DNA from: Devosia sp. XK-2
GTDB taxonomy: Bacteria; Pseudomonadota; Alphaproteobacteria; Rhizobiales; Devosiaceae
Length of the DNA stretch: 64,000 nt
Direction: 5' to 3'
NCBI RefSeq assembly: GCF_037113415.1
Contig: NZ_CP146608.1
Span: 1,818,501 to 1,882,500 of the forward strand
Under the pieces are notes generated by a model. It was not told where the DNA came from, searched no databases, and saw nothing but the letters and a program-made list of their open reading frames with translations. Positions 382 to 41,012 of this stretch are shown here, piece after piece. Both the position numbers and the translations under genes were made by a program. Position 1 is the first letter of the stretch. The number at the start of each line of letters is the position of its first letter.

Positions 382-488
382 CTAGGGCATTTCACCGTTT
401 CGTTGAAACGCTAAAATTGCTCTAAGTTCTTGTTTTATCGCGTTTCCGAACCGCAAAACCGCTGCCACTTTTGCTGGAAACGCTCTAG
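382..488 (-). repeat. Two-palindrome intergenic mosaic repeat, copy A (RIME-like)
   Basis: This 107-bp element reads on the minus strand as CTAGAGCGTTTCC to ...CCCTAG. Hairpin 1 (440-483) has arms GCGTTTCC/GGAAACGC around an inner GCAAAA/TTTTGC stem. A 21-bp linker ending ACTTAGAGC leads to hairpin 2 (382-425), centred on CGTTTCGTTGAAACG (396-410). The same architecture and linker recur at 36616-36724, and hairpin 1 alone at 40301-40344. It lies between two convergent genes and could act as a bidirectional terminator. Size and layout fit the rhizobial RIME1 description as I remember it. Confidence 0.85.
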
Positions 489-1003
489 AACTCGCCGCCT
501 ATGTCGAAGCCGCCCCAGTCGTCGTCGCCGTCAAATCCGACGTCGTCCGCTGGCGCGTCCGCCTCCGGCGCTTCTGCGGCCTGTGCGGAACCACCAAACA
601 TCCCCGCAATGGCCGATCCCAACAGCAAGCCGCCAGTAACACCCAACGCTGTCTGTGCCGCGCCGGCAAGGAAACCACCATCGGCCGGGCGATCCCAAGG
701 GCCACGCGGTCGCGCCGCGCGGGTCTCACGCCTTGACTCATCGTCGCCGAAAATACTGCCCAAAAAGCCTGCGGATCCACCCCCTCTAGCCTCGAGCGCC
801 TCAATGCGCGCTTGTTGCTCGCGCAAGGCGGCTTCCTGCACGACAATGGTCTGCGCCATATAATATGCGGCAGCCGGATGCTCGCGGAGCCGCTGGTGAA
901 TTAACGCCTCCGCCTCGGCATCCCGTGGCCCGCTAATGCGTTCAACACGCAAAAGCCGGTCGAACAGATCTTCGATTGCCCGTTCGTCTTCGTCTCGCAA
1001 CAT
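485..1003 (-). CDS. DUF2076 family protein
   Basis: The 172-residue product starts MLRDEDERAIEDLFDRL and has the charged helical N-terminus and REQQARIEALE coiled-coil-like segment of DUF2076. The middle is Gly/Ala-rich with a possible membrane-associated segment (GVTGGLLLGSAIAGMFGG), and the tail is very acidic. The ATG at 1003 is preferred because GGGAGAAGG lies just upstream; a longer frame to 1045 has no such site. The stop codon TAG is formed by the end of the adjacent palindromic repeat. The function of the family is unknown. It may be the third gene of the FliK/FlhB-C unit. Confidence 0.75.
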   Translation of the reverse strand: MLRDEDERAIEDLFDRLLRVERISGPRDAEAEALIHQRLREHPAAAYYMAQTIVVQEAALREQQARIEALEARGGGSAGFLGSIFGDDESRRETRAARPRGPWDRPADGGFLAGAAQTALGVTGGLLLGSAIAGMFGGSAQAAEAPEADAPADDVGFDGDDDWGGFDIGGEF

Positions 1004-1060
1004 GGCCTTCTCCCTGTGTCTGTGTTCGGCACATGGGGAGCCCAAGGGCGCGACGCAAGA

Positions 1061-35780: not shown

Positions 35781-36091
35781 CTTTTCTCGACCCAGTTTCA
35801 TGATATCGCCGTGGCGACGCCCTTGATGACGGGCACCATGCTTTGTTCCTCGGTTCCGGCCATGCCCCAGACCTGCATAGACCCAGACCCCTATGCCGAG
35901 CTCGACAACCGGGCCGACGCCTTCGAGCTCTCCGAAGAGCTCCGCAAGCCCATCCGCATTCACCGTGGGCACATGCCGTCTTCGCGCATGACGCAAACCC
36001 GCCTCTCCGGCCATGGCCGACGCATTCCCGTTTGAGAATCAGCGCCATGCCGTACTATCGGCGGTAAACATTTCGCGTTTTGGGGGTAGAC
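35781..36091. other. Gene-free 311-bp spacer after tRNA-Lys
   Basis: I see no supported gene, RNA or strong hairpin here. Short frames on both strands run into the tRNA or have no ribosome site and unconvincing composition. The region may simply hold the promoter of the following membrane protein gene. Confidence 0.5.
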
Positions 36092-36619
36092 ATGTCTCAG
36101 GAGACGACGGACCTCTTGAAGGTCCTGGCAGTGACTTTGCTGGTCTTTGCGGGCAGCACGCTGGTCATGCTCTACGGCATTCTGCTGCTGGCCAAATATG
36201 GTGCCAACCTGCCCATGGTGGGTTCGCTGCCACTTAACGCACCACCCGAGCTTGTCCCGGTGCTGACGGGCAGTGGTGTCTTCGCCACCCTCGCCGCCGT
36301 GCATGTTACCGGATCGGGCATCGCCCTCCTGCTCACCAGCAACACCATCGACATGGCCCTGCTCATCACCTCCAAGGCGGTGACGGTGGTCATCATGGCC
36401 CTGCTTGGCTTTGCCGGCGGCCACATGGTCTATCTGCAACTGACGGAAAGCACCGCGCTCAATCTCAATCCGCTGTTGCCGGCGCTGGTCGGCCTGATTG
36501 GATTTCTGATCCTGTCGACCCTTCTCAGCGTCCCCGCGCTGCGGCGCTTGGGCAATTTGCGCTATGCCGTGGGTATTGGCCTGATCGTGCTCGGCCCGCT
36601 CCTTCTGGTCTGGCTCTAG
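36092..36619 (+). CDS. Polytopic membrane protein, unknown function
   Basis: The 175-residue product starts MSQETTDLLKVLAVTLLVF and has about five hydrophobic helices with few charged residues between them (LLVFAGSTLVMLYGILLLA; MALLITSKAVTVVIMALLG; LPALVGLIGFLILSTLLS; YAVGIGLIVLGPLLLVWL). GGGGGTA lies before the ATG. I recognise no family or catalytic motif. The stop codon TAG is supplied by the first bases of the adjacent palindromic repeat, so the C-terminus may have been set by insertion of that element. Confidence 0.75.
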   Translation: MSQETTDLLKVLAVTLLVFAGSTLVMLYGILLLAKYGANLPMVGSLPLNAPPELVPVLTGSGVFATLAAVHVTGSGIALLLTSNTIDMALLITSKAVTVVIMALLGFAGGHMVYLQLTESTALNLNPLLPALVGLIGFLILSTLLSVPALRRLGNLRYAVGIGLIVLGPLLLVWL

Positions 36620-36724
36620 AGCGTGATCAGCAAAAGTTGCAGACTTTTGCGGTTCGATCACGCGACGATACAAGGACTTAGAGCCATATCCATGTCGATT
36701 GAATCGAAATGGATATGGCTCTAG
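36616..36724 (+). repeat. Two-palindrome intergenic mosaic repeat, copy B (RIME-like)
   Basis: This is a 109-bp element. Hairpin 1 (36621-36663) has arms GCGTGATC/GATCACGC and inner stem GCAAAAGT/ACTTTTGC. A 21-bp linker matches copy A at 17 of 21 positions. Hairpin 2 (36679-36723) has perfect 15-bp arms TAGAGCCATATCCAT/ATGGATATGGCTCTA around TCGAT-TGA-ATCGA. Copies A and B differ in the outer stem of hairpin 1, and both strands change together. As in copy A it lies between convergent genes. Confidence 0.9.
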
Positions 36725-36733
36725 GCGCCCGCG

Positions 36734-37489
36734 CTACCCCGTCAGGGTCACCACCACCGCACCACGCGGCGTGGCCACAATGGTGTGCTCGTACTGCACC
36801 GTTGGAGCCAATGGTTCGGCCGTCAGCGTCCATTCGTCGTCTTCATACATCTGCTCGGCCATCTGTCCGCCCAGAGACAGGAAGGGCTCAATGGTGAACA
36901 CCAGCCCATTGCCGATTTTCCGCCGCTCGGACCGGTCCGGCCAGGTCGGCACCTCACCCGGCTCGTCATGCAGGCTGTCGCCCACGCCGTGGCTGGCCAG
37001 GTTTCGGATCAGCGTATAGCCACCCTTCTTGGCCACCTTGCCAATCGCCATGCCGATATCCGCCAAAGGCGCGCCGGCCTTGACCGCATTGATGCCGGCC
37101 CACATCGCCTTCTTGCCGTCCCGACAGAGTTTTTCCAGCCGCGGATCGCCCTTGCCGAGAATATAGGAAGCCCCACAATCGGCAAAAACGCCATTCTTGG
37201 CCGCCGACACATCGATATTGACCAGATCGCCATCGCGCAGCACCCGGTCTCCCGGAATGCCATGGGCGATTTCCTCATTGACCGAAATGCAGGTGGCCCC
37301 CGGAAACTCGTAGGTCAGGATCGGCGCCGACTCCGCACCATGCTCCGCCAGAAATTTCGCCCCGATCTCGTCCAGTTCCAGCGTCGTCATGCCTGGCCGC
37401 ATGGCCGCTGCCATGGCCTCTCGGGCCATGGCACAGATGCGGCCGATATCCTTGAGCTTTTCAAGCTGCTCGTCAGTCGTGATAATCAA
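36734..37489 (-). CDS. map: Type I methionine aminopeptidase
   Basis: The 251-residue enzyme has every metal ligand: Asp in NIDVSA, Asp in FADCG, His in SHGVGDSLHDEP, Glu in FTIEPF and Glu in YEHTIV. The substrate His is in EIAHGIPG. It removes N-terminal Met from new proteins. The start is TTG at 37489, four bases from the pgi stop on the same strand, with AAGG upstream inside pgi. The short N-terminus without a zinc-finger extension is normal for bacterial type Ia. Confidence 0.94.
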   Translation of the reverse strand: MIITTDEQLEKLKDIGRICAMAREAMAAAMRPGMTTLELDEIGAKFLAEHGAESAPILTYEFPGATCISVNEEIAHGIPGDRVLRDGDLVNIDVSAAKNGVFADCGASYILGKGDPRLEKLCRDGKKAMWAGINAVKAGAPLADIGMAIGKVAKKGGYTLIRNLASHGVGDSLHDEPGEVPTWPDRSERRKIGNGLVFTIEPFLSLGGQMAEQMYEDDEWTLTAEPLAPTVQYEHTIVATPRGAVVVTLTG

Positions 37490-37492
37490 GCG

Positions 37493-39133
37493 TCAGGCCT
37501 TATTGGCGAGGTAATAGCCCAACAGGCCCTGGGTGGAGGCGTCATGCCCTTCCCCGCTCTCTTCGCCCTTGACCTTGGGCAGCAGCGCTTTGGCAAGTTG
37601 CTTGCCCAGCTCCACGCCCCACTGATCGTAGGAATTGACGTTCCAGATCACGCCCTGCACGAACACCTTGTGCTCATAGAGCGCAATCAGCGAGCCGAGC
37701 ACTTCCGGGGTCAATTGCTTGTAGAACAAAGTGTTGGATGGACGATTGCCCGGAAACACCTTGTGCGGAGCCAGCGCCTTGATCTGGTCTTTCTCAAGCC
37801 CCTGAGCCTTGAGCTCGGCCACGACCTCATCCTTGGTCTTGCCCAGCATCAGCGCCTCGGATTGCGCCAGCACATTGGCCACCAGCTTGTCGTGATGCGG
37901 CGGCAGGCTCTCATGGGGCCGCGCAGCAATCAGAAAATCGCAGGGAATAACATCTGTGCCCTGGTGGATCAGCTGATAGAAGGCATGCTGCCCATTAGTG
38001 CCCGGTTCGCCCCAGACGATCGGTCCCGTCGGCCACTCGACCTTCTTGCCATTGAGCGTCACCGATTTGCCGTTCGATTCCATGTCCTGCTGCTGGAGAT
38101 AGGCGGCAAAGCGGGAAAGGCGCTGGTCATAGGGCAGCACGGCATGGGTCGAAAACCCCCAGGCATTGCGATACCACACGCCGATCAGCGCCATGATCAC
38201 CGGCAGATTGCGCTCCAGCGGCGTTTCGAGGAAATGCCGGTCCATGGCGTCGGCGCCAGCCAGGAACTTGGCGAAATTGTCGTAACCGACCGCCATGGCA
38301 ATGGGCAGTCCGATGGCCGACCACACCGAATAGCGGCCGCCCACCCAGTCCCAGAACCCGAAAATCCGGTCTTCGCGAATGCCGAACTTGGCGCAGGCCT
38401 CAAGATTGGTCGACACCGCCGCAAAATGGTTGGGTATTGCCTCTTCGCCAAGAGCCTCGGCGATCCATGCCCGCGCCGAATTGGCATTGGTCATGGTCTC
38501 GTCGGTGGTAAAGGTCTTCGAGGCGACGATGAAAAGCGTCTTCTTCGGATCGAGGCGCTTCAGCACGTCATGGATATGCGCGCCGTCGACATTGGAGACG
38601 TAGTGGGCGCGCAGATCAGCGCGGGTATAGGGTTCCAGCGCCAGCGTCACCATGGCTGGACCAAGATCCGATCCACCAATGCCGATATTGACTACGTCGG
38701 TGAACTGCTCGCCACCATGGCCGCGAATTTCGCCACTGCGCACCGCATTGGTATAGGCCTCGATGGCCTCGAGCACCGCCCGCACATCGGGCATCACGTC
38801 CTGGCCATCCACCTCGACCGGTCGATCGCCTTGATAGCGCAGCGCCATATGCATCACGGCGCGATCTTCGGTGATGTTGATATGCTCGCCTTCGCACATC
38901 TGGGTACGGCGCTTTTCGACACCAGCCGCGCGCGCCAGCTCGAACAAGGCCGCCATCGCGTCCTCATCGATCCGGTTCTTGGAATAGTCGAGCAGGATAT
39001 CGGCGCCAGTCGCTGAAAAACGCTGGAAGCGGTTCGGGTCTTGCGCGAACATCTCGCGCATCGTGATGTCGCTCAGACGCTTGCGCTGCTTCATCAGCGG
39101 ATTGAGCACGTCGCCACGTTCGCCCTTGGCCAT
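37493..39133 (-). CDS. pgi: Glucose-6-phosphate isomerase
   Basis: The 546-residue enzyme has [14 protein letters not shown], the active-site block [34 protein letters not shown] with the catalytic His, and the C-terminal [12 protein letters not shown]. It interconverts glucose-6-P and fructose-6-P, the latter being the GlmS substrate. AGAGGA precedes the ATG at 39133. It is close to tgt (24 bp) and map (3 bp) on the same strand. A 743-codon open frame on the opposite strand is a codon-bias shadow. Confidence 0.97.
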
Positions 39134-39157
39134 AGTCTTGTTCCTCTGAGAAATCTT

Positions 39158-40285
39158 TTAGAGAACCGGCAGATCGCCTGCGGCCCAGGCCGCTCGTGTC
39201 TCTGCCGCAAAATCATTCATCCGCCCCGCCTGAATGGCAGTGCGCGCGCCCTCGGTCAGCTCCTGATAATAGGCCAGGTTGATCTGCGAAAGCACCATGG
39301 CGCCCAAAATCTCTTCTGTTCGAACCAGATGGTGCAGATAGGCCCGGCTCCAACGGCGGCAATTGGGGTTGGGCGATTGCTCATCCAGAGGACGGTGATC
39401 GTCCTTATGCCGGGCATTTTTCAGGTTGATGACGCCAAACCGCGTATAGGCATGCCCATGCCGACCAGCCCGCGTGGGATGCACGCAGTCGAACATGTCG
39501 ATGCCGCGCTCGATCCCGCCCAGAATATCGTCCGGCTTGCCGACGCCCATCAGATAGCGCGGCCGATCGGTCGGCAGTTCAGGCGTAATCTCGGAAAGAA
39601 CCCGGAACATGACCTCCTGCGGCTCACCCACGGCCAGCCCGCCCACGGCATAGCCGTCAAAGCCGATATTCTTCAAACCAGCCGCTGAGCGGCCACGCAA
39701 TTCGGCATCGTCGCCGCCCTGCACAATGCCGAACAGCGCCCGGTTTTGCTGGTTGTTGAATGCCGTCTTGGAACGGTCGGCCCAGCGAATGGAGAGCTCC
39801 ATCGCCCGCTCCATCTCCTTGCGCTCGGCCGGCAGCGCAATGCACTCGTCGAGCTGCATGATGATGTCGCTGTCCAATAGCGTCTGGATCTCGATGGACC
39901 GCTCCGGCGTCAGTTCATGGCTCGACCCGTCGATATGCGACTTGAAGGTCACACCCTTCTCGGTGAGCTTTCTGAGCTTGGCCAGCGACATGACCTGAAA
40001 CCCGCCGCTGTCGGTCAGGATCGGCCGCTGCCAATCCATGAAATCGTGCAAACCGCCCAGCGCTGCCACACGCTCCGCGCCCGGTCTCAGCATCAGGTGA
40101 TAGGTATTTCCAAGCAATATATCGGCGCCGGTTTCGCGCACCTGCTCGGGATACATGGCTTTGACGGTTCCGGCGGTCCCCACCGGCATGAAGGCGGGGG
40201 TATTGATTTCGCCGCGCGGCGTATCGATGCGGCCGCGACGGGCCATGCCGTCAGTGGCAAGGAGGGAGAAAGTGACTTGCTTCAT
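39158..40285 (-). CDS. tgt: Queuine tRNA-ribosyltransferase with degenerate zinc site
   Basis: The 375-residue enzyme keeps the TGT fold and both catalytic aspartates: Asp92 in [10 protein letters not shown] and Asp266 in [13 protein letters not shown]. It exchanges guanine-34 for preQ1 in tRNAs with GUN anticodons. The zinc site, usually C-x-C-x2-C plus a distant His, reads SPNPNC before [11 protein letters not shown]. Only Cys309 remains, Ser304 and Asn306 replace two cysteines, and the His position is Ile335 (QINLAYY). Either the protein folds without zinc or other ligands are used. The ATG at 40285 is chosen; the upstream frame runs through a repeat. Confidence 0.93.
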
Positions 40286-40300
40286 GGCGCGGGTTCTAAA

Positions 40301-40344
40301 GCGTTTCCAGCAAAAATGGTAACGGTTTTGCGGTTCGGAAACGT
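40301..40344 (+). repeat. Partial mosaic repeat, copy C (hairpin 1 only)
   Basis: GCGTTTCC/GGAAACGT arms surround an inner GCAAAA/TTTTGC stem, matching hairpin 1 of the elements at 382-488 and 36616-36724. The linker diverges after GAAAAAC, and hairpin 2 is missing. It lies in the 100-bp gap between exoD and tgt, 16 bp before the tgt start, so it may form a hairpin in the tgt leader. Confidence 0.8.
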
Positions 40345-40385
40345 GAAAAACGAGCCGGCCCCGTCCATATCGCAAAGCAGCCCCG

Positions 40386-41012
40386 TCACGCCACCGCGCC
40401 CACGGCGGCCATGCCCAGATGGAAGGCGCCAACAAAGATGGCGACGGCCACCCCAAGCCCAATCGCTGTGGCGACCAGCCCCACAATAACCCCCACGCCG
40501 TCCCGGTTCAGCATCGAAAAAGCAATGATGCAGAGTCCAACATTGGGTATGGCATTGATGAACGGGATCGGCAGCGACATCACCACGCTCACGCAAATGA
40601 CCAGCACGGCATAGGGCAGATTGGCCGCCGCGCTGGTCATCCAGCGCATGCGGGGCTTGGAAAAGCGCGCCAGGATGCCGGCCACCTTCACCACCTGTTC
40701 ACTACCTTTAACCAGGGTGCCGAGCGGCAATCTGCGCTCCCCGATAATGCCCGGCAATCGGATCGGCCGCCCCATCAGCATGGCAATGGCAATAGCGCAG
40801 GTCGTCCAGGCAATTGTGCCGCCATAGCCCGGCGGCCCGGGGATCATGTTGAACAAGGAAACGACAAGCAGCAGCAGCCTATGCGCCCGCGGCCCGAGCA
40901 CCATGACCAGTCGCGACAGCGTCATATGCGACTGTTCCTGTTCTGCCGCCCGCGTAAGCGCCGACGCGATACGGCGCGTATAGCGCGTGATCGGCGCGGC
41001 GTGCTCGGTCAC
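40386..41012 (-). CDS. ExoD family membrane protein
   Basis: The 208-residue protein has a charged N-terminus and four to five helices ([74 protein letters not shown]). The [13 protein letters not shown] block is typical of ExoD. ExoD affects exopolysaccharide production and alkali tolerance in rhizobia; the mechanism is unknown. The GTG start at 41012 overlaps the queA stop by four bases, so translation is coupled. Confidence 0.88.

Follow-up and report, generated by a model that had tools for sequence, protein, structure and literature searches.

A palindromic repeat of about 105–109 bp, present in about 50 whole or partial copies in a Devosia genome (G000; 3.80 Mb, complete, one contig), is a mobile unit with a defined target, the tetranucleotide CTAG, and it is this target that is new here. 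The repeat is very probably a non-autonomous, MITE-like mobile element which inserts into CTAG and whose hairpins are kept through the spreading lineage. Three copies lie in the window, the whole stretch of 64,000 nucleotides that was analysed, which spans G000:C1:1818501-1882500, and are listed below with the features around them. For the neighbouring gene the closest named loci are from Devosia. Scores are those of R1, a covariance model of hairpin 1 plus linker.

382..488, minus strand: copy A, a full-length element (107 bp) in which 440-447 pairs with 476-483 as the outer stem of hairpin 1; linker 425-439, hairpin 2 383-424; R1 score 98.8 bits (G000:C1:1818919-1818988)
485..488, minus strand: CTAG at the hairpin-1 end of copy A (L096, S5); the DUF2076 gene at 485-1045 (minus strand) has its stop codon in this TAG
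36080..36619, plus strand: gene running into copy B, 179 aa, without a Pfam match
36616..36724, plus strand: copy B, likewise full-length (109 bp), with hairpin 1 at 36621-36663, linker at 36664-36678 and hairpin 2 at 36679-36723; R1 score 86.8 bits
36616..36619, plus strand: 5' CTAG of copy B (L102, S5); the gene at 36080-36619 stops at its TAG, and relatives have the same CTAG without the element
36721..36724, plus strand: 3' CTAG of copy B, the second copy of the target tetranucleotide
36734..37489, minus strand: Peptidase_M24 gene (methionine aminopeptidase-like), opposing copy B
40296..40346, plus strand: copy C, consisting of hairpin 1 alone, in which 40301-40308 pairs with 40337-40344

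A sequence-only reading of the window had picked out these three copies, and all are present, the partial one being hairpin 1 alone. Its description of them is also borne out. The outer arms are GCGTTTCC/GGAAACGC in copies A (minus strand) and C and GCGTGATC/GATCACGC in copy B, with three bases changed per side in matching fashion; the inner stem GCAAAA/TTTTGC is unchanged, and a 21-bp linker is identical at 17 of 21 positions between copies. The hairpin 2 sequences of A and B are unlike, yet both fold. In copy C the last pair of the outer stem is G.T; the copy is common to a sister locus (L019), where an outer arm is broken. At the Rfam gathering score the window yields two tRNAs only, and the repeat has no match.

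The same reading had allowed that the genome might hold no further copies; there are many. An exact core pattern finds 14 matches in the genome and its reversed control none, and R1 gives 50 matches at E≤0.0213 and 56 at E≤1 (150 of 1523 first-look candidates scored); the core and covariance-model matches together rule out a chance repeat. Full copies begin with CTAGAGC and end in GCTCTAG. Hairpin 1 has an 8-bp outer and a 6-bp inner stem with a bulge of 5, and an A-rich linker joins it to hairpin 2 (TAGAGC ... GCTCTA); many copies consist of hairpin 1 alone. As in a MITE, the unit is short and non-coding, and intact full copies have terminal inverted repeats (CTAGAGC...GCTCTAG). In five copies (L155, L157, L161, L162 and L166) an extra hairpin of the TCCTCGGGCTTCGACCCGAGGA type takes the place of part of the hairpin-1 bulge, which suggests a three-way junction; all five have the stop codon of the incoming gene in their 5' CTAG. 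The genome also holds two tandem forms of the repeat, and in G312, a genome of the same family, locus L368 (1005-1379) carries a tandem array in which a 64-bp unit made of hairpin 1 and linker is repeated 5.9 times, with a single hairpin 2 after it. The mobile unit would be CTAG, hairpin 1, A-rich linker, hairpin 2 and CTAG, with a shorter form of hairpin 1 alone and longer forms made of tandem units or bearing an additional branch.

At five sites the Devosia genome reads CTAG-element-CTAG and relatives read plain CTAG. This is the target duplication of a MITE, and it fits a 4-bp as well as a 2-bp duplication. At the copy B site, the same gene closes with GGCTCTAG in 9 of the 40 relatives listed and no element is visible there, and in L019 the 16 bases after CTAG equal the flank of copy B in length. 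For five further copies the joined flanks were compared with 75 genomes and 20 relative loci were picked, a choice that favoured matches crossing the junction. At the L110, L155, L157 and L166 sites eight of the 20 picked loci read exactly CTAG and four read CTAA, TAA or TTAG, while another four of the 20 have extra bases (CTAGGCC twice, CTAGCTCAG and CAAGGCCTAA). Among the other picked loci L268 is occupied, L273 has an element elsewhere nearby, L277 gives no clear picture and L283 tells nothing about the L161 site; the reading of genome G032 at the L157 site is unclear.

Two of these sites have been hit independently by another subtype in other species. The copy B stop codon carries another subtype in L024, and the L110 site is occupied in L268 (G032) by another subtype in the opposite orientation. 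Independent insertions at the same tetranucleotide suggest target choice. The element would insert into the palindromic CTAG in either orientation and leave a CTAG on each side of itself, and a stop codon in the target would thereby survive. The two terminal CTAGs could stem from duplication of all 4 bp, from duplication of the TA within CTAG, or from a shared recombination core.

Many copies sit on stop codons, as judged with gene calls from a codon-usage model rather than annotation. Under a strict rule the 5' end is exactly the stop of a gene running into hairpin 1 in 20/48 copies of this genome and 45/89 copies of others. Either end falls on a stop codon in 26/48 of this genome's copies, leaving 22/48 with no end on a stop, and with a looser rule for the 3' end stop docking reaches 30/48 here and 53/89 elsewhere. 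Control CTAGs of the same loci are stops in 7/54 and 22/128 cases, respectively; against these the strict p values are 0.0015 (5' end) and 1e-5 (either end) for this genome and 2e-7 (5' end) for the others. When only non-genic CTAGs are used for comparison, the 5' excess of this genome is not significant (20/48 versus 7/27, p 0.21), with p 0.03 for either end and 7e-5 for the 5' end in the others. Among stop codons lying -10 to +150 nt from the start of an element, CTAG accounts for 31/57 in this genome and 61/104 in others, versus 7/112 and 27/249 for stops elsewhere (p 5e-12 and 6e-20).

CTAG is scarce, with 35 occurrences in the window against 66 expected from trinucleotides. The copies are intergenic, as are those of RIME1, with 0/48 inside a called gene in this genome and 1/89 in the others. 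Since the 5' excess of this genome is not significant against non-genic CTAGs, loss of genic insertions explains part of the stop excess, and the scarcity of CTAG combined with such loss accounts for that part. Copies would accumulate in this way on TAG stops at gene ends; the remaining excess may be preference or retention. We recognised no report of CTAG or stop-codon docking of these repeats in the openly licensed literature, and subscription papers may describe it.

Neighbouring genes are most often convergent or in the same direction: 21 convergent, 23 same-direction and 4 divergent pairs among the 48 copies of this genome, and 49, 33 and 5 among 87 others. The prominence of convergent neighbours is one reason to consider that resident copies are functional RNA parts at gene ends, such as two-way terminators or 3'-end stabilisers, with the paired changes reflecting local RNA selection; the excess of copies at stops relative to other intergenic CTAGs could likewise mean retention there. 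Excerpts of PMC2873474 describe S. meliloti repeats as partly transcribed. Furthermore, G-U outnumbers A-C on the model strand (47 versus 25, p 0.013, with some bias from copy-finding), a weak sign of RNA on that strand. Against this, elements occur in either orientation, even at one site, and a simple scan for intrinsic terminators (a stem followed by a T run) finds no terminator-like site at copies B and C, the single match in 36000-41000 lying elsewhere, with 3.6 expected in shuffles. Taken with the comparison of shared copies given below, these observations make a role of this kind for the resident copies unlikely.

Start codons are also found close to the repeat. A start codon lies within 18 nt of hairpin 1 in 26/137 copies, although some of the ORFs are doubtful; examples are copy C, L108, L111/L202, L116/L146/L194, L132 and L113. 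Copy C is 10 nt from the start codon of tgt (assigned by Pfam), which is on the minus strand, and the other genes so placed are, by eye from their N-termini, rsmA, xseA, a GNAT, mutM and xth. The clearest purine run ahead of the ATG in L108 and L111 is the outer arm GGAAACGC, a possible ribosome site inside the stem.

The first 14 copies contain doubly changed pairs only as one three-pair block in three copies, two of these a tandem pair, and the difference among copies A, B and C taken alone is therefore one event. The wider set is far more varied. Among 49 copies of this genome, 9 of the 14 pairs of hairpin 1 are changed on both sides and 94.7% of cells are paired; among 94 distinct copies found elsewhere in the genus the values are 10 of 14 and 98.6%. 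Doubly changed cells number 57 and 91, respectively, versus 13.2 and 25.7 in shuffles that ignore relatedness, in alignments fitted to the structure and of copies found by using it, and none of 500 shuffles reaches either value. Nor do any of 500 reach the observed score, and slid structures score far lower; the number of doubly changed pairs is reached by 5/500 shuffles for this genome and 0/500 for the others.

Hairpin 2 co-varies as well. In a fixed pairing register the signal is weak through poor recognition of the hairpin (5.47 versus 5.09, sd 0.11, with shuffles up to 5.36), and a duplex-energy test was used in its place for that reason. In 60 of 137 copies, a few wrongly cut hairpins among them, the arms of hairpin 2 have a mean duplex energy of -13.84 kcal/mol with their own partner versus -9.11 when swapped (sd 0.38), and 0/200 swaps reach the observed value.

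The stem changes are thus compensatory in both hairpins and across many pair types, a point on which the sequence-only reading had been prepared to fall. It had gone on to take paired change as selection on structure, and this stands only in part; the main property of the repeat, its insertion into CTAG and frequently at stop codons, had escaped it. Ten between-species comparisons of copies at the same place (L111/L202, L116/L194, L116/L146, L119/L142, L129/L175, L132/L136, L135/L141, L143/L145, L176/L222 and copy C/L019), a small sample judged by eye, contain no compensated change in the hairpin-1 stem; the stems are identical in 4/10 and the rest differ by a wobble (L135/L141 and L176/L222) or a mismatch. 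Selection on each copy as RNA or cruciform finds no support here; the result suggests that the fold is constrained in the lineage that spreads and not copy by copy. The moving machinery would have to recognise a folded strand, of DNA or RNA, and the hairpins would be kept for that reason; new subtypes would then spread only if folded, while resident copies would decay.

A DNA process could also maintain the symmetry of the stems, with template switching in palindromes copying one arm to the other, in which case paired change would show no selection. The difference between A and B is a clean block of three adjacent pairs, as such copying would leave, and other subtypes also differ as blocks when compared by eye. 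However, single-sided wobble or mismatch cells are common (16 A-C and 24 G-U of 665 in this genome), stems in some shared copies stand unrepaired, and template switching leaves insertion unexplained; we consider it an improbable account of the repeat.

The repeat extends well beyond this genome. Across the genus R1 has matches in 64/75 genomes, from 0 to at least 67 in each, 67 being the number of candidates scored. With a wider model, R2, and E-values that are rough for both models, matches are found in 174/297 sampled genomes and 81/122 genera of the order at E≤0.001, and in 30/289 sampled genomes of the class at E≤1e-5, 27 of these 30 being outside the order. A blastn comparison with plasmids gave 239 records, mostly Rhizobium (138) and Sinorhizobium (73), and in 178 records one place covers at least 80% of the query.

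One distant genome, G454, which shares only the class, has near-identical copies. Five copies seen whole are 86–96% identical over 106–109 bp and lie in unrelated flanks; for those truncated at contig ends, identity reaches 100% over 98–99 bp. These similarities suggest recent spread of the unit. A longer element in G454 is unsupported, as identity ends at the element edges in the five whole copies; the contig-end copies are mute on the 3' side. The copies of the Devosia genome are diverged, and activity there may therefore be over.

The family appears to be that of rhizobial RIME1. RIME1 units are about 106–112 bp long with two large palindromes, and the name, reportedly from Osteras et al. 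1995, is said to stand for Rhizobium-specific intergenic mosaic element. The Devosia repeat is similar in length (107 and 109 bp), in its two hairpins, and in being intergenic and mosaic. The sequence-only reading had remarked on this resemblance, and alignment bears it out as homology: a full sister copy, L095, can be aligned over 106/107 bp (75.7% identity) with S. meliloti 1021 pSymB 334494-334598, where the pSymB copy is unlabelled in the record. Two Sinorhizobium records, one of them unannotated, do not show the published RIME1 position near the two-component genes. The repeat described here differs in its presence in Devosia and many other genera, its extra-hairpin subtype, and the target and stop docking now defined. 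Osteras et al. 1995 is the source cited for RIME1 in passages of PMC2245857 and PMC2573895, and the latter describes the repeats of rhizobial genomes, RIMEs included, as intergenic sequences of unknown function.

Other repeats are comparable to differing degrees. Bru-RS1 and Bru-RS2 of Brucella are described in portions of PMC10800456 and PMC2267715 as palindromic intergenic repeats of 103–106 bp in dozens of copies. By description they match the Devosia repeat in length, palindromes and intergenic position, and IS711, which targets YTAR, is often inside them; by this analogy, and as far as excerpts of PMC2266754, PMC3163539, PMC2677664 and PMC10800456 describe them, they are probably relatives. 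Bradyrhizobium has Br-REP1 and Br-REP2, palindromic repeats that lie in 3' ends, in the case of Br-REP1 where genes converge, and are associated with small RNAs (PMC5082802, in part); by the same excerpt their units are about 20–40 nt, and their consensus CCGGAATCTCGAGATTCCGG is unlike hairpin 1 or 2. GTAG- and CGTC-tagged REPs are hairpin repeats with a conserved tetranucleotide at the foot (PMC3733652, in part), whereas here the tag would be CTAG, which is also the target, and the Devosia genome has no Y1 transposase match.

The mover was sought among transposase domains. At E≤1e-5 the Devosia genome has no match to PF13340 (DUF4096, IS427-type), PF13358 (DDE_3, IS630), PF01797 (Y1_Tnp), PF02371 (Transposase_20, IS110), PF01609 (DDE_Tnp_1) or PF00665 (rve). 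The genome looks poor in insertion sequences on this count. Absence of all six families holds for this genome only, as rve is present in 6/6 other genomes tested. Across the genus copy number, counted with strict filters, has no correlation with PF13340, PF13358, PF02371 or PF01609 (|rho|≤0.07). The mover may have come and gone.

IS427/IS5-type and IS630-type transposases both duplicate TA in YTAR or CTAG. Parts of PMC2266754, PMC3163539 and PMC2677664 describe Brucella IS711 as duplicating TA at YTAR, often inside Bru-RS. The repeat could accordingly be a MITE of either type of transposase, and of 30 Devosia IS427-type loci, 10 (L235, L236, L238, L240, L241, L246, L248, L250, L253 and L262, with inverted ends) have plausible paired ends that start at CTAG, and three more have them at TTAG. 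None of these loci has the ends of the repeat, however, their inverted repeats (such as GGCCCTGTTGACA) being unlike the element ends (GAGCGTTTCC); both families are missing from the Devosia genome and from the copy-rich G011, G013, G054, G061 and G073, and the lack of correlation with copy number also speaks against them. Such a parentage is doubtful.

A single-strand transposase (Y1, RAYT, IS200/IS605-like) that reads end hairpins and cuts at CTAG, as for a REP/REPIN-type repeat, would leave CTAG at both ends with no need of a true duplication, and hairpins do adjoin the tetranucleotide at both ends. Y1_Tnp, however, has no match in this genome or in 72/75 genomes of the genus (three are positive, and control genomes respond in 5/14 cases), and there is no GTAG or CGTC tag. 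We regard this origin as quite unlikely.

The MITE-like reading has consequences for the biology of these repeats. Docking at CTAG and stop codons would readily explain why the repeats lie between genes, often convergent ones, and possibly also the reported IS711 hot spots, each repeat being a source of the otherwise scarce CTAG. An abundant repeat in a complete genome without a match to six common transposase-domain families is a real gap in knowledge. In the fullest form of this reading, to which we give little credence for now, the repeat would be a class-wide element that docks at the CTAG of TAG stops, and its mover would be no resident IS transposase but a recombinase of the host or of a visitor, one able to read the strand in its folded state. 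It could then be a distinct, structure-read form of bacterial mobility, and some of the hairpin-1 copies next to start codons would be later recruits as leader RNAs. With empty sites, a tetranucleotide target and stop docking, the spread of rhizobial repeats becomes a question for the bench.
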